This document shows positions 26,276 through 50,808 of a stretch of DNA of 64,000 bases, piece by piece. Position 1 is the stretch's first letter, and each line of letters begins with the position of its first letter. The DNA comes from Nitrospirales bacterium. Its GTDB lineage: Bacteria > Nitrospirota > Nitrospiria > Nitrospirales > UBA8639. Below the pieces are notes generated by a model. It was given only the letters and a program-made list of their open reading frames with translations, did no database searches and was not told where the DNA came from. The translations under genes were made by a program, and so were the position numbers. The stretch lies in contig JALDRJ010000002.1 of assembly GCA_031315865.1 (NCBI GenBank), forward strand, positions 3,012,001-3,076,000. The letters are read 5' to 3'.

Positions 26276-26292
26276 AGCAATGAAAGTGCCAA
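26276..26292 (-). promoter_or_regulatory. Sigma-54 (-24/-12) promoter for the response regulator/kinase/cytochrome run
   Basis: On the minus strand the site reads TTGGCAC-TTTCA-TTGCT, an exact match to the core consensus with the GG-to-GC distance of 12. The predicted start is near 26265, giving a 62-base leader before the ATG at 26203. A GTTAA array lies at about -121 to -159, an enhancer-like distance. The same 12 fixed bases recur at 29658 (minus) and 43829 (plus). Confidence 0.75.
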
Positions 26293-29641: not shown

Positions 29642-29658
29642 AGCAAAAGCAGTGCCAA
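29642..29658 (-). promoter_or_regulatory. Sigma-54 promoter for Usp copy 3
   Basis: On the minus strand TTGGCAC-TGCTT-TTGCT matches the -24/-12 consensus in all fixed bases. The predicted start is near 29631, 49 bases before the Usp ATG. It lies in the 262-bp region shared with the divergent NtrC-family activator, whose product is the natural candidate to switch it on. No clear inverted repeat for activator binding was found upstream. Confidence 0.75.
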
Positions 29659-41708: not shown

Positions 41709-42140
41709 GTGAGTTTGGAATGTGGACGTTCTCAGACCTGCATGTGTCAGATACTCGTGGTGGATAATGACCCGGCAATGAGAAGTCTGCTTGTTGATGA
41801 ACTGAGCGATAATGGCTGTCAGGTTGTCGAATCCCCTGACGGGTGCGATGCTCTGGCCAAAGTGAAACTACAGGCATTTAATCTTGTCATTACTGATCTC
41901 AAGATGCCTGGAGGGGGGTATGCGTATTTGAAAAAGATGCTCGCTTCCGTTCAGGACTGTCCTGTAATCCTTATTACGGCATTCGGAAACGCTCAAACGA
42001 GAAAGGATGTGCTGGCTTTTGGCATCTCAGCGTATTTTGACAAACCTGTCCGTGTTAATGAGCTTCGGGCGGCTCTGCAGCGAGTGTGTCCGATCGATAA
42101 ACTTCGAACATGTCAGAATCAAATGATTAAAGATGGATAA
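41709..42140 (+). CDS. Single-domain response regulator
   Basis: Receiver-only protein of 143 residues. It starts at GTG 41709, which follows GGAGGG by 7 bases. Acidic pocket ILVVDNDPAMR, phosphoacceptor Asp63 in ITDLKMP, Thr in LITAFG and Lys in YFDKPV are all present. The first 13 residues contain Cys5, Cys11 and Cys13 ahead of the receiver fold, an odd feature. It lies 45 bp before the sigma-54 activator gene, which itself lacks a receiver domain, so the two may act together as a split NtrC-type regulator. No kinase gene is adjacent. Confidence 0.88.
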   Translation: MSLECGRSQTCMCQILVVDNDPAMRSLLVDELSDNGCQVVESPDGCDALAKVKLQAFNLVITDLKMPGGGYAYLKKMLASVQDCPVILITAFGNAQTRKDVLAFGISAYFDKPVRVNELRAALQRVCPIDKLRTCQNQMIKDG

Positions 42141-42185: not shown

Positions 42186-43601
42186 ATGGCCGGATCGTTT
42201 TTTAACCCGGAATTAACGGATGATTCGACGGTATCTTCTCGGTTACAGGCTTTAATACTTCTCGCGGATCAGCTTTCTGAGCCGATTGCTATTTTAGATC
42301 CTGATTTAAAGCTCATCTATTCCAATTCATCTACCTCAGGCATGGAGATGCCCTGTCCTCTCTTGCCAGATCAGGTAGGGGAGTCTTTACAGGACGACGA
42401 AGTCAAAGAACCTCGTTGCGCAGTCTGTCCAGCGGAACAGCATTTGGGCCAAGACGACTCTCTCCTCGTCAACGCAGATTCTTCAAGCACTTCTCAAGAT
42501 CACCGGTGTCCATTTCCGACATCATTTCCGGTGCCTGGAGGAGATGGAAGGGTCGGCTTTGTGGTGATGATGGGAAAACATCCACACGAGACGAAAATTT
42601 GGAGGGGAATGTCTCAGGGGCAGCCATATCTCCGTGACCAATCTACGGATGAGGTTGCCCTGTCGCAACCGACACTCATCGGCCAAAGCGACCCTATGCA
42701 ACAATTGATGGAAATGATTCGCTTGGTCGCCCAATCCGAGTCAACGGTCTTGATTGAAGGTGAAAGTGGAACCGGAAAAGAGCTGGTGGCGCGGACAATC
42801 CATAATTTGAGCCCTCGTCGCAATCATCCGTTTGTCGTCGTCGAATGCAGTTCTCTCCCCGAGACTTTATTGGAGAGCGAACTGTTCGGTCATGTCCGCG
42901 GTGCGTTCACCGGGGCTGTTGTCGACCGAAAAGGATTGTTTGAAGAAGCGAAAGGCGGAACGATTTTTTTAGATGAGATTGCCGACACGATTCCCACTTT
43001 TCAAGCAAAACTGTTGCGAGTGTTGCAGGAAGGTGAAATTAAACCCGTTGGTGGAAATCGTCCGATCAAGGTGAACGTCCGCGTGATTTCCGCGTGTAAT
43101 CGATCACTGACCGCACTGGTGGAGAAGCAAGCGTTTCGTTCCGATTTATACTATCGCTTGGCTATCTTGCCATTGGGCGTTCCAGCGCTTCGCGCTCGAC
43201 AGGGAGACATTCCCTTGCTGGCCCAATATTTCTTGGAACAATCGTGTGACAAGAATAACAAGCGAGGATTATCGATTCCGCAAACTACCATGCAAGCGCT
43301 TCTGGCGCATGATTGGCCTGGAAATGTGCGTGAATTAGAGAATGTGATTGAACGGGCTGTCGTCATTGCACAATCTTCAACGCTGAGTATTCGCGATGTG
43401 TTTGGAGACGTGCGCATAGATATTGAGAATGAGCAGCCGGGGCTGGGTTCTCTCAGCAAGGCTGCCCGTCAAGCTATCGAAAAGCAAGAAATACTCAAAG
43501 TTCTTCAAGAAACGAACGGTGATAAAACGCACACCGCACGACGGCTGAAAATCAGCCGAGCCAACCTCTACAATAAGTTAAAAGCCTATAACATTCGTTA
43601 A
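42186..43601 (+). CDS. Sigma-54-dependent activator with Cys-bearing PAS-like sensor
   Basis: Enhancer-binding protein of 471 residues without receiver domain. The ATG follows AAAGGAGTCCC. Residues about 20-165 form a PAS-like sensor (EPIAILDPDLKLIYSN) holding four Cys: 57, 78, 81 and 108, with 78/81 as a CxxC, which could bind metal or react to redox change. The AAA+ domain (about 172-400) has GESGTGKE, the intact sigma-54 contact loop GAFTGA, GGTIFLDE, and WPGNVRELENV. Fis-type HTH at the end (THTARRLKISRANLYNKL). The next gene, 498 bp on, is the giant multicopper oxidase with a perfect sigma-54 promoter, the obvious target. Confidence 0.94.
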   Translation: MAGSFFNPELTDDSTVSSRLQALILLADQLSEPIAILDPDLKLIYSNSSTSGMEMPCPLLPDQVGESLQDDEVKEPRCAVCPAEQHLGQDDSLLVNADSSSTSQDHRCPFPTSFPVPGGDGRVGFVVMMGKHPHETKIWRGMSQGQPYLRDQSTDEVALSQPTLIGQSDPMQQLMEMIRLVAQSESTVLIEGESGTGKELVARTIHNLSPRRNHPFVVVECSSLPETLLESELFGHVRGAFTGAVVDRKGLFEEAKGGTIFLDEIADTIPTFQAKLLRVLQEGEIKPVGGNRPIKVNVRVISACNRSLTALVEKQAFRSDLYYRLAILPLGVPALRARQGDIPLLAQYFLEQSCDKNNKRGLSIPQTTMQALLAHDWPGNVRELENVIERAVVIAQSSTLSIRDVFGDVRIDIENEQPGLGSLSKAARQAIEKQEILKVLQETNGDKTHTARRLKISRANLYNKLKAYNIR

Positions 43602-43828: not shown

Positions 43829-43846
43829 TTGGCACCAAGGTTGCTT
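43829..43846 (+). promoter_or_regulatory. Sigma-54 promoter of the multicopper oxidase
   Basis: TTGGCAC-CAAGG-TTGCTT matches the -24/-12 consensus exactly, with GG and GC 12 apart. The predicted start is near 43856, leaving a leader of about 244 bases before the ATG at 44100. The gene just upstream encodes a sigma-54 activator and two direct repeats lie at about -199 and -132, so every part of a sigma-54 switch is present in order. Confidence 0.8.
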
Positions 43847-44099: not shown

Positions 44100-47000
44100 A
44101 TGTTTACTCGTAGAAGTACAACGTTTCGTGCGAGATGGTTGCTCGGAGCCCTGGGAGGAGCCTTGCTTCTGGGATCTCCCTCTCTGATTCTTGCCGAAGA
44201 CTCAATAGCCGACGTCCATTCCGTGTCGATGAATCATGAAAACAGTACGGGGTGGGCGGAGCGCTTGAAGGGGCAAACGATCGTTGAAAATTCAGTCGAA
44301 GGTCGAGCTGAGCGCGCCGCAATGGTTGAGCTTCAGCATCAGCGTTTAATGGAGCAGATGCAAAAAGAGATGGGGCATTCTCGGCACCAAGAGCATAACA
44401 CGGGAGCCTATAATTCCATGTCGATGATGCATCAATATGGTGCTGGACCAGCCAATGGCTTATTGGCTACCACGACTGGTGCAGAGCCGGTCTCTGACCG
44501 AGGGGGGCGGTGTCCGGCGACTGCACCGGTGAAAGAATATGATATTTCGGCCATCAACGTGGAAATTTCTTTAAATCAATGGCTGGATTACTATCCAGGG
44601 TATATGTACTCCCTGACCGAAAACATTGAGAAGGTTCGTGAAGAAGAAGCCAGGAATGCGGAGGCTCGTGAGTCTGAGGGCCATAGTAACCCCGGAGCAG
44701 TGAAAAACGGGATCCAGGATCAATGGATTCAACCGCTCGTGATTCGCGGGAATCAAGGCGATTGCGTAAAGATTACTCTTCGCAACAAGTTAGAGTTCGG
44801 AGAAGATGTGAGTCTCCATATCAATGGTTCGGACATGGTGATGAGCAAAAGCGGTCTCCCTGCCACCACGACGAATCCTGAAGCGATCGCGTATGGGCCC
44901 CGTGAAGATGCTGAAGAGGGGGATAAACCCGAACCGATCAAGATGGAATGGTACATTTCCCCTGATGCTCAGGAGGGCGGCCGGCAATTCCACACCTATA
45001 GCAATGATCGGGAATTGACGGTGATGGGGCTTTTCGGTGTGTTCGTCATCGAGCCACGCGGCTCGAAATACTGGGAGCCATTGGGAACCGGCCCGGCGAC
45101 CGAAGCCCGGAGCGGCTGGCAGGTCATGATTGAAAATGGAACGGGTCCGGACTTCCGGGAGTTTGTGTTGATTTATCATGAGGTCGGTGATGAAGCGTTT
45201 CGGCCTGTGAACAAGCATGGGGACTTCCTTCCGCAACGCGATCCGCTTTCAGATGCCTATCGGCCAGGCGCCCGTGCCTTGAATTATCGAAGCGAGCCGT
45301 TCGGCATTAACAACATGCATGTGCAGCATGAATACTTTGGTTTTGAGGATGAATCGATGGCGTATAGCTCCTATACGTTTGGCGATGCGGCTCCGACGAT
45401 TCCACGGAGTTATTTGGGTGATCCAGCCAAGTTCCGTGTCGTTCACGGCGGATCTGAAGTCTTTCATTCCCACCATCCTCATGGTGGGTCCATCCGGTGG
45501 CAACGGAGTCCTCGAGCGACGCAAATGCCGGTATGGAACACTGGTCAGAATGGTCCTGTGAAATATCCGATCGTCCGAACCAAGTCGGACCGGGTTGATG
45601 TCGAAGTCATCGGGCCAGCCGAGGCTTTAGATTTGGAAACGGAATGTGGGTCCGGCCTGTGCCAATGGCTTGCCGGAGATTTCTTGTTCCACTGCCATGT
45701 AGCTCATCACTATGTGGCCGGAATGTGGGGGTATTGGAGAGTCTATAACACGTTGCAAACTCCTGGCGTGCAGAATGATGTGATGCCGCCATTGCGAGAA
45801 TTGCCGGATCGGCTTGACCGAATCCAGAAACCAGTGACCTCGGATCAACTGGTCGGGAAAACGGTGAACTGGTTTGGTCGAAAATTCAAAATCGTGGAAT
45901 CGGGCAAGAACGATTGGAAGTCGAATCCTGCAGTCGTGACTCTCAAAGACTGGGTGGAAATGCAGCTTGCCAACCAGGGAGTCCCGGGAAACACGAAGGA
46001 TGAGTTGGGGCAACTTAAATCCTATGATGCGACGGTGCTGGACTGGGTATGGGATGGTAAAAAAGCCATGAGTGAAAAAGAACCCACGCTCGGCCAGAAT
46101 CCGAAATACCAACCTGAATGGCAGGGATATCAGCCAGGAGAACGTCGAGCGATTTGGTTTGAGCCGACGACAGGGAAAGTGGCCTGGCCATGGTTGACCC
46201 CACACTTTGGGAAGCGGGCTCCATTTTCAAACGATCATAACCCGGCTCCATGGTTGGAAATGATTCGCTTGAATGATGATGGCACGCGATCGGTCGGACC
46301 GGCCAAGCCCGGTGAAAACGGCAATTGGAGCCTATGTCCAAATCGTGCGGGTTCGCAAGATTACAATGTGCATTTTATTAAACTGCCGATTGAGTTGTCG
46401 GCGGCTGAGGGTGATCAAGAGGCGATCGTCGATCCCAACGGACTCTTGTATGTCGTCCATGAAGAAGAGGCTGAAGTTCGAGCCAATAATGACAAGAAAT
46501 TCCCGTTGGTGGTTCGGGCGAATGTGTATGACTGTATTGATTGGACCCTGACGAGCGAATGGTTGGATGACGATATTACGAACTTCCAATCATCCAAGAT
46601 TAACACGCATTTTCATTTCTTTCAGTTTGATAACCAGGCCTCAGATGGGGTGATTTCCGGATTCTCGTACGAGCAGTCGATGCGACCCTTTACCCAGTTC
46701 AAGAAAGACAAGAAAAAAGGGTTGCCTGTACCGATGAACGCGAAAGTGACGAAGGCCGTGAAAAAAGGGCAAAAGTCAATCGAGATTACCAATGCCAAGC
46801 AGTACCATGTCGGCATTCCAATCCTGATCGGTGCCGATAATGTGAAGGGTCAGGAAGTGCGTCGGATTGCCAAAATCGGTGATAACAGCCTGACGTTTAC
46901 TGAAGCGTTGAAACATGATCATCCTGTTGGAGAGATCGTGACGGTTGAATATGTCAGACAACGGTTCTGGGTCGATGCCGACGTGGGAAGCGTGTTCTGG

Positions 47001-49013
47001 CATGACCATGCGTTTGGTGGAACCACGTGGCCACACGGTGCCGTGGGAACCATGATTGCCGAACCATTCGGTTCAACCTGGCATGACCCCAAGACGGGGA
47101 AACCGATTCGGACAGGGCCAGTCGCCGATATTTATGCGACTGAGCGTGTTGGACATGATGTGGCGGGCAGTTTCCGTGAATTGATGGTCCATATCATGGA
47201 TACGGTGCCTCACACGGTGAATATCGTGACGGCGGGGAATCCTCCCGGTCAACCGGTTGATGTCGCGCTCGAAGCCGGTCGTACCGTCTCATTTATCATG
47301 CCGCCGAACGATAAGATTAAGATGACGCCGATGCCATTCTTGAACGGAGGGACTCACACCACCGGTGGGGCATTAAACTTCCGGGCGGAGCCCTTCGCGC
47401 AACGATTGGCGAACAATTCGGATCCATCGAAACTCTTTAGCAGTGTGGTACATGGTGACCCCAGTACGGCCATGATTCGTGCCTACCTGGGTGATGCCGT
47501 GGTATTTCGTCTGCTCGATGTGACGATGAATGAAAGTAATGTCTTTACGGTGTCAGGTCACACATTCTGGTCAGAGCGGTATGCGGAAGAAGCGAACCGG
47601 AAGAATTCTCTGCATATCGGCATCGCGGAACGGTATGACCTTGTCTTGCCTGAAGCGGGTGGCCCGCGTCATCAAGCAGGGGACTACATGTTCTTCAATG
47701 GACGGAGTTCGAAATTCTCGGAAGGTGCCTGGGGAATCATGCGGGTACTCGATAAACCGATCAGCGACCTTCAACCGTTGCCGAATAAGGCCTACGGAAA
47801 AGAGGGAATGCCCGAGCAGCTTCCAGTCTGCCCGAAAGACGCGATGGTGAAGACTTTTAACGTCGTGGCCATCGATCATCCGGGGATGAGCTTCAATCCG
47901 AATGCCGGAGAGGCGATTGAAGTGGATTTTGAACGGAAGATCGAATTGCGGAATCCAGAAGCCAAGATTTATGTTCTTGAAGACGAAGTACAGAAGGTTT
48001 CTGGTGATGCGCAACCCATGCCGTTGACCCTGCGTGCGAACGTCGGCGACTGCCTGAAGATCAATCTGACGAATAAGATGAAGGAGAGCCGGGCCTCATT
48101 CTCGGCGTTCGGCCTTGCCTTTGATCCGAAAGATTCGCAAGGGGTTAATCTTGGCAACAATCCAGGTGATCAAACCGTGGCTCCTGGTGAATCTCGAACC
48201 TACACCTACTATGCTGATCCGTTCAACGGAGAAGGACAAACGTTGGTGTGGGACTGGGGCAATGTTGCCATGAACCCGCGCAATGGACTGTTTGGCGGGA
48301 TTATCATCGGGCCGAAAGGATCAACCTACCGAGATCCTCAGACCGGTGAAGATATTTCGATGAAGAACAGTTGGAAAGCGGATGTGATCGTGGACCACAC
48401 CATTCAAGGAAACGAAGGTCGAGCGAACTATCGGGATGTGGCCTTGTATTTCCAGGATGAGGACAACATTATCGGAACCAGTTTCATGCCATATGTCCAA
48501 AATGTTGCGGGGTTGACGGGTGTGAACTACCGGGCTGAACCCTATCTCTACAGAGAAGAAACCGGTTGTACGTTGGGTAAGATGTTCCAACCATGCGAAG
48601 TCGACAATCCGCAAGATCCAGTGACTCCACTGATTTTGGCACACGCTGGTGACAAGGTTCGTATCCACGTGTTTGGCGCGAGCAGCGAACAAAATGGAAT
48701 GTTCACCATCGAAAAGCACGAATGGCCGATTGAACCCTTCCTGGATGGGGCTGACATAATTAGCACGGTTGAGTTTGCTGGCTCTGAGGGCTTGGATGTA
48801 TTCCTGCCATCGGCCGGTGGAACCTATGCTCTCCCAGGTGATTATGTCTGGAGCAACGGGCGGTTGCCGTATTCGCAATCAGGTCAATGGGGATACTTTC
48901 GGGTACTTCCTATGAACGATCAGCGAGTGCTCCCGCTCAGTGGTGCCGTTTCGGGAAAGAATATGGCGCAGTCGGAGCCCATACAACCGACTCCGGCGTC
49001 ATTTAAGCCATAA
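44100..49013 (+). CDS. Giant multidomain multicopper oxidase, MnxG-like motif order
   Basis: Exported 1637-residue multicopper oxidase built of several cupredoxin domains. ATG set by GGAGG 7 bases before; signal peptide to about residue 33 (ending LILAED). Residues 75-112 are rich in Met and His, as in copper-handling proteins. The trinuclear/type 1 motifs are all present but in inverted order: His456-x-His458-His459-Pro-His461 and the full HCHxxxHxxxxM loop at 531-542 (His531, Cys532, His533, His537, Met542) come first, whereas the two HxH motifs (837-839 in THFHFF; 968-970 in WHDHAFGG, plus His979) come later. Classical oxidases have the HxH pair at the N-terminus. The Mn(II) oxidase MnxG is known for the same inversion. 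Further cupredoxin-like domains fill 1080-1600. Substrate (Mn, Fe, Cu or organic) is open. A terminator follows. Confidence 0.9.
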   Translation: MFTRRSTTFRARWLLGALGGALLLGSPSLILAEDSIADVHSVSMNHENSTGWAERLKGQTIVENSVEGRAERAAMVELQHQRLMEQMQKEMGHSRHQEHNTGAYNSMSMMHQYGAGPANGLLATTTGAEPVSDRGGRCPATAPVKEYDISAINVEISLNQWLDYYPGYMYSLTENIEKVREEEARNAEARESEGHSNPGAVKNGIQDQWIQPLVIRGNQGDCVKITLRNKLEFGEDVSLHINGSDMVMSKSGLPATTTNPEAIAYGPREDAEEGDKPEPIKMEWYISPDAQEGGRQFHTYSNDRELTVMGLFGVFVIEPRGSKYWEPLGTGPATEARSGWQVMIENGTGPDFREFVLIYHEVGDEAFRPVNKHGDFLPQRDPLSDAYRPGARALNYRSEPFGINNMHVQHEYFGFEDESMAYSSYTFGDAAPTIPRSYLGDPAKFRVVHGGSEVFHSHHPHGGSIRWQRSPRATQMPVWNTGQNGPVKYPIVRTKSDRVDVEVIGPAEALDLETECGSGLCQWLAGDFLFHCHVAHHYVAGMWGYWRVYNTLQTPGVQNDVMPPLRELPDRLDRIQKPVTSDQLVGKTVNWFGRKFKIVESGKNDWKSNPAVVTLKDWVEMQLANQGVPGNTKDELGQLKSYDATVLDWVWDGKKAMSEKEPTLGQNPKYQPEWQGYQPGERRAIWFEPTTGKVAWPWLTPHFGKRAPFSNDHNPAPWLEMIRLNDDGTRSVGPAKPGENGNWSLCPNRAGSQDYNVHFIKLPIELSAAEGDQEAIVDPNGLLYVVHEEEAEVRANNDKKFPLVVRANVYDCIDWTLTSEWLDDDITNFQSSKINTHFHFFQFDNQASDGVISGFSYEQSMRPFTQFKKDKKKGLPVPMNAKVTKAVKKGQKSIEITNAKQYHVGIPILIGADNVKGQEVRRIAKIGDNSLTFTEALKHDHPVGEIVTVEYVRQRFWVDADVGSVFWHDHAFGGTTWPHGAVGTMIAEPFGSTWHDPKTGKPIRTGPVADIYATERVGHDVAGSFRELMVHIMDTVPHTVNIVTAGNPPGQPVDVALEAGRTVSFIMPPNDKIKMTPMPFLNGGTHTTGGALNFRAEPFAQRLANNSDPSKLFSSVVHGDPSTAMIRAYLGDAVVFRLLDVTMNESNVFTVSGHTFWSERYAEEANRKNSLHIGIAERYDLVLPEAGGPRHQAGDYMFFNGRSSKFSEGAWGIMRVLDKPISDLQPLPNKAYGKEGMPEQLPVCPKDAMVKTFNVVAIDHPGMSFNPNAGEAIEVDFERKIELRNPEAKIYVLEDEVQKVSGDAQPMPLTLRANVGDCLKINLTNKMKESRASFSAFGLAFDPKDSQGVNLGNNPGDQTVAPGESRTYTYYADPFNGEGQTLVWDWGNVAMNPRNGLFGGIIIGPKGSTYRDPQTGEDISMKNSWKADVIVDHTIQGNEGRANYRDVALYFQDEDNIIGTSFMPYVQNVAGLTGVNYRAEPYLYREETGCTLGKMFQPCEVDNPQDPVTPLILAHAGDKVRIHVFGASSEQNGMFTIEKHEWPIEPFLDGADIISTVEFAGSEGLDVFLPSAGGTYALPGDYVWSNGRLPYSQSGQWGYFRVLPMNDQRVLPLSGAVSGKNMAQSEPIQPTPASFKP

Positions 49014-49160: not shown

Positions 49161-50072
49161 ATGAGACGGGGAGTCATGAGTGCTATTTTAATCGCATGTC
49201 TAGGTATGGGAAGCCAAGGGGCTTTCGCAGCGTACGAAGAAATCGAAGTCGCAGACGGAGGAACACTGTCCGGGACCATCACGTTAAAAGGTGAGCAACC
49301 TCGTCCCAAGGGCTATAACCTCGTCAGTTTTCCAGATCCAGCGTTTTGTGGTCGGATTTCCAACGGAAAGGGGTGGCGGTTGCTTCAGCCTTTCCAAGTC
49401 GGAGCGAATGGGGAGTTTGAAAATGTGGTGGTCTACCTCGAAGGGATCAAGAAGGGGAAAAAATTCGACTATACCCCGTCGCAAATCGAAGCCATAGACT
49501 GTAAGTTCGCCCCGTACATCACGATCGTCCGTGATCGGCATGAAGTCAAAGTAGTGAACATGGATCCTGTCATGCACGATATTCAGGCCTATGAAACGTC
49601 AAAATTAGGGGCGCGTGTCCTGTTTAATTTGCCATTACCCGTGAGCGCGAAGCTCAAGAAGACTGATTTGATGAACGGAAAGAAGGTTAAGAATCGTGCA
49701 GGTCGAATCGTCAGCCCTACGATTAAAATGAAAAAAGGTCGTCATATCTTCGCCATGCAATGTGGGTTTCATCCCTACATGGAAAGCTGGGGGCTTGCCA
49801 TGGATTCTCCGTATTTTGCGTTGACTGATCAACAGGGAACCTTCACGATTGATGGGATTCCGCCTGGTACCTACAAGGCGGTGATTTGGCATCCGATGAT
49901 TCAAAAGGAAATGATGGTCACGATCGAGCCGAATAGTACAACCGATTTGTCCGTGGAGTTCGATTCGCCCAAGGGACGTTTATACGCCAATGAGGCGCAT
50001 GACAATACGCGATTTGGGATGGAGCTACTCGGCGATTCTCAAATCGTGCCAATGGTTGAACTTCAGCAATAA
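49161..50072 (+). CDS. Periplasmic cupredoxin-like protein with carboxypeptidase-regulatory-like domain
   Basis: Exported protein of 303 residues with TAAGGAGG before its ATG and a signal peptide (VMSAILIACLGMGSQGAFA). Residues 30-210 look like a cupredoxin: ligand candidates are His139 in VMHDIQ and the loop Cys201-x2-His204-x2-Met207 in MQCGFHPYM. Residues about 215-275 (GTFTIDGIPPGTYKAVIWHP) match carboxypeptidase regulatory-like beta domains. Cys63-area Cys residues (AFCGR, AIDCKF) may pair. Its place right after the oxidase, though past a terminator, suggests an electron shuttle or copper donor for it. Function is inference. Confidence 0.82.
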   Translation: MRRGVMSAILIACLGMGSQGAFAAYEEIEVADGGTLSGTITLKGEQPRPKGYNLVSFPDPAFCGRISNGKGWRLLQPFQVGANGEFENVVVYLEGIKKGKKFDYTPSQIEAIDCKFAPYITIVRDRHEVKVVNMDPVMHDIQAYETSKLGARVLFNLPLPVSAKLKKTDLMNGKKVKNRAGRIVSPTIKMKKGRHIFAMQCGFHPYMESWGLAMDSPYFALTDQQGTFTIDGIPPGTYKAVIWHPMIQKEMMVTIEPNSTTDLSVEFDSPKGRLYANEAHDNTRFGMELLGDSQIVPMVELQQ

Positions 50073-50109: not shown

Positions 50110-50808
50110 GTGAAGACGTCACTTGAGAAACGTGCTCCGCTTGACTGTGCAACGTGTTCCTGTCGAGAGACGGCGGATGTCTGTAGTCTCGCTGCGGATA
50201 TTCTCAGGAACCTGCAGCAAACCAAGCAAACGATGGTTTGTCGGGGAGGGCAATATGTATTCTACGAAGGGCATCCGGTTCTGGGCGTTTATGTCCTGTG
50301 CCATGGACGGGTAAAGCTGACGCGATCGACGAAGAAGGGGCAGCAGCGTGTCGTGAAAATCGTAGAACCTGGACAGGTGCTCGAATGGAATCTGTATCAA
50401 CAGTCCGCCATACATCATGCGACGGCGGAGACGCTCATGTCCTCGCGCATCTGCGTGATTGATCGTGTGAGTTTCTTGAATCTGGTCGAACAGGATAGCC
50501 GCGTCGCCTTTCGACTCCTAACGTTGATGAGCCGGGAACGGCTTGCGTTGCTCGATTATGAAGATCAACTAGCCTTCAGTAGTGCTCGCGAACGCATCCG
50601 TAACGTGTTGTACGACCTGGCTGAAAACTATGGTGAGCGAGTCGAAGATGGCGTGTCTATTTCACTCTCGCTCAAACGGGAGGAATTGGCTCAAATGGCC
50701 GCCCTGACCCCAGAAACGACAGTCCGGGTCTTGAAAACTCTCGAGGCGAATCGCTGTGTTCGCTTATCGGGACGAACGATCACGATTCTTGGAAGCGGAC
50801 TCGATTGA
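50110..50808 (+). CDS. Crp/Fnr-family transcription regulator with N-terminal Cys cluster
   Basis: Cyclic-nucleotide-fold regulator of 232 residues starting at GTG 50110, after a G-rich ribosome site. Cys13, Cys16, Cys18 and Cys25 near the N-terminus, plus Cys44 and Cys64 in the sensor barrel, recall Fnr proteins that bind a [4Fe-4S] cluster, although spacing differs from E. coli Fnr. Sensor domain about 30-145, dimer helix 150-180, winged HTH at 190-228 (KREELAQMAALTPETTVRVL). It starts 37 bp after the cupredoxin stop and is probably cotranscribed. An Fnr-like box precedes the porin gene next door and a Crp-like box lies at 21439. Oxygen sensing is likely but not shown. Confidence 0.9.
   Translation: MKTSLEKRAPLDCATCSCRETADVCSLAADILRNLQQTKQTMVCRGGQYVFYEGHPVLGVYVLCHGRVKLTRSTKKGQQRVVKIVEPGQVLEWNLYQQSAIHHATAETLMSSRICVIDRVSFLNLVEQDSRVAFRLLTLMSRERLALLDYEDQLAFSSARERIRNVLYDLAENYGERVEDGVSISLSLKREELAQMAALTPETTVRVLKTLEANRCVRLSGRTITILGSGLD

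Follow-up and report, generated by a model that had tools for sequence, protein, structure and literature searches.

A predicted six-domain multicopper oxidase found across the class Nitrospiria, and its cupredoxin-like neighbour

A 64,000-nucleotide stretch of a Nitrospirales genome (the window) encodes a very large exported protein in which the HxxHxH and HCHxxxHxxxxM copper motifs precede two HxH motifs. The first-pass annotation of this stretch took the inverted order of the motifs as a pointer to the manganese oxidase MnxG and proposed a metal oxidase with its own regulator in a chemolithotroph-like genome. This raises the question to which kind of oxidase the protein belongs, and which substrate, partner and regulation it is likely to have. 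The reading frame of 1637 residues given in that annotation was borne out, and the positions of the four copper motifs matched exactly (Table 1). In the following, the oxidase is referred to as MCO and the cupredoxin-like protein encoded downstream of it as CUP.

Table 1. Features of the oxidase locus, in positions of the window
Feature	Position	Strand	Remarks
Response regulator receiver protein	41709..42140	+	Pfam Response_reg 7.6e-22
Sigma-54 activator	42186..43601	+	AAA+ and Fis-type HTH, Cys-containing N-terminal sensor region
Sigma-54 promoter element	43830..43845	+	Exact TGGCAC-N5-TTGCT, between the activator gene and MCO; 270 nt before the MCO start
Six-domain multicopper oxidase (MCO) gene	44100..49013	+	1637 aa; single stop, at the end
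Probable Sec signal peptide	44100..44195	+	aa 1-32, cleavage near LILA/EDS; by eye
Met/His-rich N-terminal segment	44217..44444	+	aa 40-115; by composition
HxxHxH copper motif	45465..45482	+	HSHHPH, aa 456-461 (H456 H459 H461, D2); aligns with the HxxHxH of MnxG
HCHxxxHxxxxM motif	45690..45725	+	HCHVAHHYVAGM, aa 531-542 (H531 C532 H533 H537 M542; type 1 copper and Cys-His bridge)
Long D2-D3 linker	45816..46334	+	aa 573-745; without Pfam match
HxH motif	46608..46616	+	HFH, aa 837-839 (H837 H839, D3)
Beta-rich insert of D3, between its two HxH motifs	46710..46964	+	About aa 871-955 (about 85 residues); without own Pfam match
HxH motif	47001..47009	+	HDH, aa 968-970 (H968 H970, D3)
Cupredoxin domains of MCO			D1 139-325, D2 345-555, D3 755-1000, D4 1020-1225, D5 1245-1420, D6 1430-1610; limits approximate, based on the MnxG alignment and on the model of D3-D6
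CUP, exported cupredoxin-like protein	49161..50072	+	303 aa; C-terminal CarboxypepD_reg/fn3-like domain
CUP type 1 loop	49761..49781	+	C201-x2-H204-x2-M207; plus H139 at 49575-49577
Crp/Fnr-family regulator	50110..50808	+	In few related loci; link to MCO uncertain

The 12 copper ligands of MCO listed in Table 1 are all invariant in 19 homologues of 41-89% identity, and they align with those of a Priestia plasmid MnxG-like protein, of a Streptomyces plasmid homologue and of the third oxidase of the same genome. Since the ligands are invariant among the homologues and aligned in such distant proteins, a chance occurrence of the motifs can be excluded. The best solved relative of MCO is MnxG (9bxa; E 7e-75), in which an Ala lies opposite H537; as the title of that entry is that of the H340A mutant, H537 should occupy the position of the type 1 histidine. 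Domains D1 and D2 are supported by the sequence alignment to 9bxa, and a model of D3-D6 (mean pLDDT 68.6) could be superposed on residues 433-1217 of the same structure with a Z-score of 21.1 over 668 aligned residues. The model of D1-D4 (aa 128-1228) has a mean pLDDT of 62.6, with residues ~375-553 in D2 mostly below 50. The low confidence for D2 is due to an input alignment that comprised only rows of 63-88% identity, and because D2 was poorly modelled the convergence of the ligands is not visible in it. The Pfam search returned only fragments of multicopper-oxidase domains for the chain; the module inserted in D3, the linker between D2 and D3 and the N-terminal segment matched no family. 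Taken at the level of sequence, MCO is predicted to be a six-domain multicopper oxidase with its copper site at D2/D3. The earlier proposal of an exported multicopper oxidase with the copper sites placed as in MnxG is thus supported, the Sec-type signal peptide having been assigned by eye.

Does the order of the motifs make MCO an MnxG? Three interfaces of a six-domain cupredoxin ring are equivalent to one another: D6/D1, D2/D3 and D4/D5. The order found in three-domain laccases and CueO, with HxH N-terminal to HxxHxH and HCH, is reversed in MCO. All the six-domain prokaryotic oxidases surveyed by Vasin et al. have the trinuclear site at D2/D3 and a type 1 site only in D2; the D2/D3 interface is used in algal Fox1 too, and D6/D1 in ceruloplasmin (PMC3600357). 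Because the surveyed bacterial six-domain oxidases all use D2/D3, the inverted order is the normal prokaryotic arrangement, and as a pointer to MnxG it is unspecific. The remark that the chain is larger than MnxG holds for comparison with the Bacillus proteins (1217-1227 aa), but not with the MnxG-type proteins of Pseudomonas, which measure about 1945 aa (PMC3600357).

That MCO could be a true MnxG orthologue appears very improbable to us. Architecture and ligand order are the same, and the NCBIfam MnxG profile NF041487 does match MCO (E 5e-39), but the score of 133.1 bits compares with an equivalog cut-off of 3100, on which a proteobacterial MnxG identity was rejected, and the profile is fitted better by another ORF of the same genome. 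In the tree, MnxG and this better-matching ORF are placed outside the Nitrospira clade, the deep joins being unsure owing to long branches. By the profile cut-off, MCO is therefore not an MnxG. The third six-domain oxidase of the genome (L136:4828-10590, minus strand; G000:C2 about 3510830-3516590; 1920 aa) matches NF041487 over most of its own length, with a score still far under the cut-off.

Within the family, D3 varies in the module between its two HxH motifs, which in MCO contains an additional HDH (aa 939-941). A similar module is found in the Streptomyces homologue. In one paralogue clade a LysM domain is nested in the module (Pfam E 1.2e-14); this clade includes the second copy of the window genome (L026:4588-9732, minus strand; G000:C2:350588-355732; 1715 aa), whereas the window copy is without LysM. 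LysM domains usually bind peptidoglycan, so the LysM paralogue may be anchored at the cell wall. Enlarged D3 inserts were observed at L026, L035, L036, L044, L056 and L060; a loose LysM-like pattern also flagged L027, L039 and L104, which were not counted as their inserts are not enlarged. The L026 copy has a Cys pair (VFCHDH...AVC) at the positions of Trp and Gly in the window copy. Two CUP genes come next in its locus, and after them genes for a protein of 225 aa and a HEAT-repeat protein. A divergent homologue (L040:4041-8723, minus strand; 37-41% identity) has retained HxH-type residues in D1, perhaps as the remnant of a second trinuclear half-site.

The regulator postulated in the first-pass annotation is supported by a sigma-54 activator gene upstream of MCO and an exact sigma-54 promoter element between the two. 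The association extends beyond the window: the element was found, with at most one mismatch, for 14 of the 30 MCO genes that have an upstream sigma-54 activator gene (5 exact; 0.4 of 30 expected from shuffling), compared with 5 of 64 MCO genes that lack such a gene (0 exact). The window holds three exact matches in total, the other two at 26276-26291 and 29642-29657, both on the minus strand. Predicted sigma-70 promoters and terminators near MCO did not exceed the shuffle expectation and were dropped. In some of the related loci, too, a response regulator gene precedes the MCO gene. The N-terminal region of the activator contains Cys 57, 78, 81 and 108 (CxxCP and two others), which are common to about half of the aligned homologues, namely those of the same type; this four-Cys region is possibly a metal or redox sensor.

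Downstream of MCO, the ligand set of CUP (H139, C201, H204 and M207) is kept in 106 of 106 aligned homologues, and on this set of His, Cys, His and Met, CUP is predicted to be a type 1 (blue) copper protein. Its short C-x2-H-x2-M loop presumably resembles that of amicyanin; a sequence search for a solved relative of CUP found none. At least 67 of 86 MCO genes have CUP encoded in the same orientation no more than 3 kb downstream (54 within 300 bp, median gap 128 bp), a lower bound that depends on ORF calling, since tblastn finds more. In the phylum sample, strong CUP matches are present in all 77 MCO-bearing genomes of the class, and matches outside the class are weak (E 1e-16 to 1e-28). Such a constant neighbour would fit an enzyme whose electron donor is not a metal but a periplasmic carrier, be it reduced CUP or another one, and which serves as a soluble O2-consuming sink or as oxygen protection. 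The full type 1 ligand set of CUP and the co-occurrence of two class-wide genes throughout the class sample point in this direction. The co-occurrence is, however, confounded by shared ancestry within one class and does not count as independent evidence, and CUP copies outnumber the MCO genes (often 2-13 per genome), with some located elsewhere, so that CUP may have other partners. We regard an electron sink of this kind as unlikely, if worth keeping in mind.

The evidence can also be read in terms of copper. The Met/His-rich stretch reported near the N-terminus is real: Met and His make up 15 of 76 residues at aa 40-115, against 96 of 1637 in the whole chain (binomial P 3e-5, for what is about the richest 76-residue stretch of the chain). 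MCO might then oxidise Cu(I) in the periplasm and thereby confer copper tolerance, copper being bound by CUP and by the Met/His-rich N-terminus. CueO and PcoA are parallels in function, with a different architecture. Besides the N-terminus and the small copper protein as a constant neighbour, the four-Cys region of the activator could speculatively be counted in favour, as a metal sensor. On the other hand, the Met/His segment is weakly conserved, H111 being the invariant residue there among 19 homologues, and genes for a copper efflux ATPase, CopC/CopD or CopZ-like proteins were not recognised among the neighbours examined. What is found in many related loci is a sigma-54 activator gene upstream, or genes for HEAT-repeat, FGE-sulfatase-like (e.g. 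L045:3223-4182, minus strand, one of several such genes near oxidase genes) and uncharacterised 220-aa proteins downstream. A role as a cuprous oxidase in copper tolerance seems unlikely to us.

The distribution of MCO is that of a class-wide gene. The family was found in 185 of 186 class genomes that are at least 90% complete, in 44 of 45 genera, and often in at least two copies. Named relatives belong to Nitrospira and other Nitrospirota, including N. moscoviensis and Ca. N. defluvii. Outside the class, four genomes of the phylum sample had matches, all weak (E 1e-6 to 1e-19). The window MCO belongs to a distinct clade, which has practically no members elsewhere in the phylum. Two records titled Opitutales and Nitrospinota (L050 and L060) contain oxidases very close to those of Nitrospira; these are probably mis-binned contigs, and gene transfer may be considered as well.

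The window genome carries three NxrA-like nitrite oxidoreductase genes, two of them identical over the 1145-aa query (G000:C2:747856-751290 and 984319-987753) and the third with 86% identity, which indicates a nitrite oxidiser and agrees with the chemolithotroph-like genome that had been proposed. A general link between MCO and nitrite oxidoreductase was nevertheless not supported. NxrA (E 1e-200 or better) is present in 125 of the 186 class genomes but in none of the 24 that fall outside the order, and as all 24 keep MCO, the oxidase does not track nitrite oxidation. This bears on the role that Luecker et al. (2013) proposed for a putative MnxG-like multicopper oxidase of Nitrospina gracilis and Ca. 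Nitrospira defluvii, namely the formation of Mn(III) against reactive oxygen (PMC3578206). In the available passages of that paper, Ca. N. defluvii is described as lacking superoxide dismutase and catalase, and the oxidase gene of N. gracilis as lying within the NXR gene cluster (PMC3578206), both of which favour a defence against superoxide by Mn(III). The 24 genomes with MCO and without NxrA argue against it, as the link with nitrite oxidation is not general, and we consider such a defence rather improbable as the function of MCO; in its chemistry it is a special case of the explanation that we prefer.

That preferred explanation, to which we assign a probability of about 0.5, is an exported, O2-reducing six-domain oxidase with one copper site at D2/D3, a metal ion as substrate, CUP as partner and control by sigma-54. 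The sequence shows the reading frame with its ligands and homologues, the pairing of the two genes, the match to the promoter consensus and the distribution across the class; how copper is loaded, how electrons flow, what is oxidised, where the protein resides and how it is regulated we infer as follows. MCO would form a ring of six cupredoxin domains with a single working copper site, consisting of a type 1 copper in D2 and a trinuclear cluster between D2 and D3, the equivalent copper positions in the other domains being apparently degenerate. The reducing substrate would deliver single electrons to the D2 type 1 copper, from which they would travel along the HCH bridge into the D2/D3 cluster and there reduce O2 to water; both the site of electron entry and that of O2 reduction are supported by the ligand set and the homology. 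CUP probably swaps electrons or copper with MCO, and the upstream activator probably turns on transcription of the window copy via sigma-54. Among substrates, a metal ion seems the most likely to us, Mn(II) in the first place and then Fe(II) or Cu(I); this ranking was made because MnxG, the only studied protein of closely similar architecture, oxidises Mn(II). The poor modelling of D2 and the large shortfall from the MnxG cut-off weigh against this explanation. So does the near-universal presence of MCO in a class of which most members are nitrite oxidisers not known for manganese oxidation, as it would allow a general role in copper or redox housekeeping.

A more far-reaching variant would be that MCO works with CUP as an electron-transfer module throughout the class: electrons taken from a metal would leave the type 1 site by way of CUP for the respiratory chain, and not go to O2 alone. 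In that case all these bacteria, including the nitrite oxidisers, could gain energy from metal oxidation; we hold this to be a long shot.

MCO is an enzyme of a known kind and represents a variant clade, not a new system. Members of the family were already noted in Nitrospira defluvii and Nitrospina in 2013 and have hardly been described. What we add is the class-wide distribution independent of nitrite oxidoreductase, the blue-copper protein CUP predicted downstream with its invariant type 1 ligand set, the beta-rich insert of D3, which in one paralogue clade harbours a LysM domain, and the exact sigma-54 promoter between the activator gene and MCO. A copper enzyme of about 1600 residues that is kept, in at least one copy each, by 185 of 186 class genomes is costly and must serve something basic. 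The interest of MCO therefore lies in this retention and in the question of its substrate in globally important nitrifiers and their relatives. Oxidation of Mn(II) or Fe(II) by Nitrospira with MCO is directly testable, with CUP and the sigma-54 promoter as handles.

Among the named systems, Bacillus MnxG (9bxa) has six cupredoxin domains, a type 1 site in D2 and a trinuclear site at D2/D3, and its 12 ligands can be aligned with those of MCO. MCO differs in being only about 28% identical, in its longer D2-D3 linker and extra D3 module, and in falling below the equivalog cut-off. In place of MnxE and MnxF, the neighbours of the Bacillus protein, MCO has CUP; the intervals between regulator gene and MCO and between MCO and CUP contain no ORF of at least 100 aa. 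Ceruloplasmin also is a ring of six cupredoxin domains and was the second structural match of the D3-D6 model (4enz, Z 18.3), but has its trinuclear site at D1/D6 instead of D2/D3. MofA of Leptothrix and OmpB of Geobacter, proposed for redox reactions of Mn and Fe (PMC5566968), resemble MCO by description, as very large exported multicopper oxidases. Neither mofB (prolyl isomerase) nor mofC (cytochrome c) of that type of cluster adjoins MCO, the adjoining genes being those for the sigma-54 activator and CUP; the nearest cytochrome c gene lies 3.9 kb away on the opposite strand. The homologue on an actinomycete plasmid of Streptomyces sp. NBC_00335 (WP_266914373.1; L133:5308-10626, annotated as hypothetical) shares 30% identity over its full length, the same ligands and a module at the same place in D3. 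It is uncharacterised, and the gene after it is annotated as CopC, where MCO has CUP.

The protein of Luecker et al. very probably belongs to the MCO family, as Ca. N. defluvii (FP929003) has several homologues with 62-71% identity to MCO. The available passages of their paper deal with one or a few members and the proposed role, and leave the pairing with CUP, the D3 insert and its LysM, the sigma-54 control and the class-wide distribution unmentioned (PMC3578206). Finally, two "novel" multicopper oxidases per genome have been described in the Ca. Manganitrophaceae (PMC9040806), which by published taxonomy belong to the same class. The class genomes outside the order mostly contain two MCO copies, with 57-60% identity, so that the oxidases of the Manganitrophaceae may be members of the MCO family, and the family may bear on the origin of manganese lithotrophy in this class.
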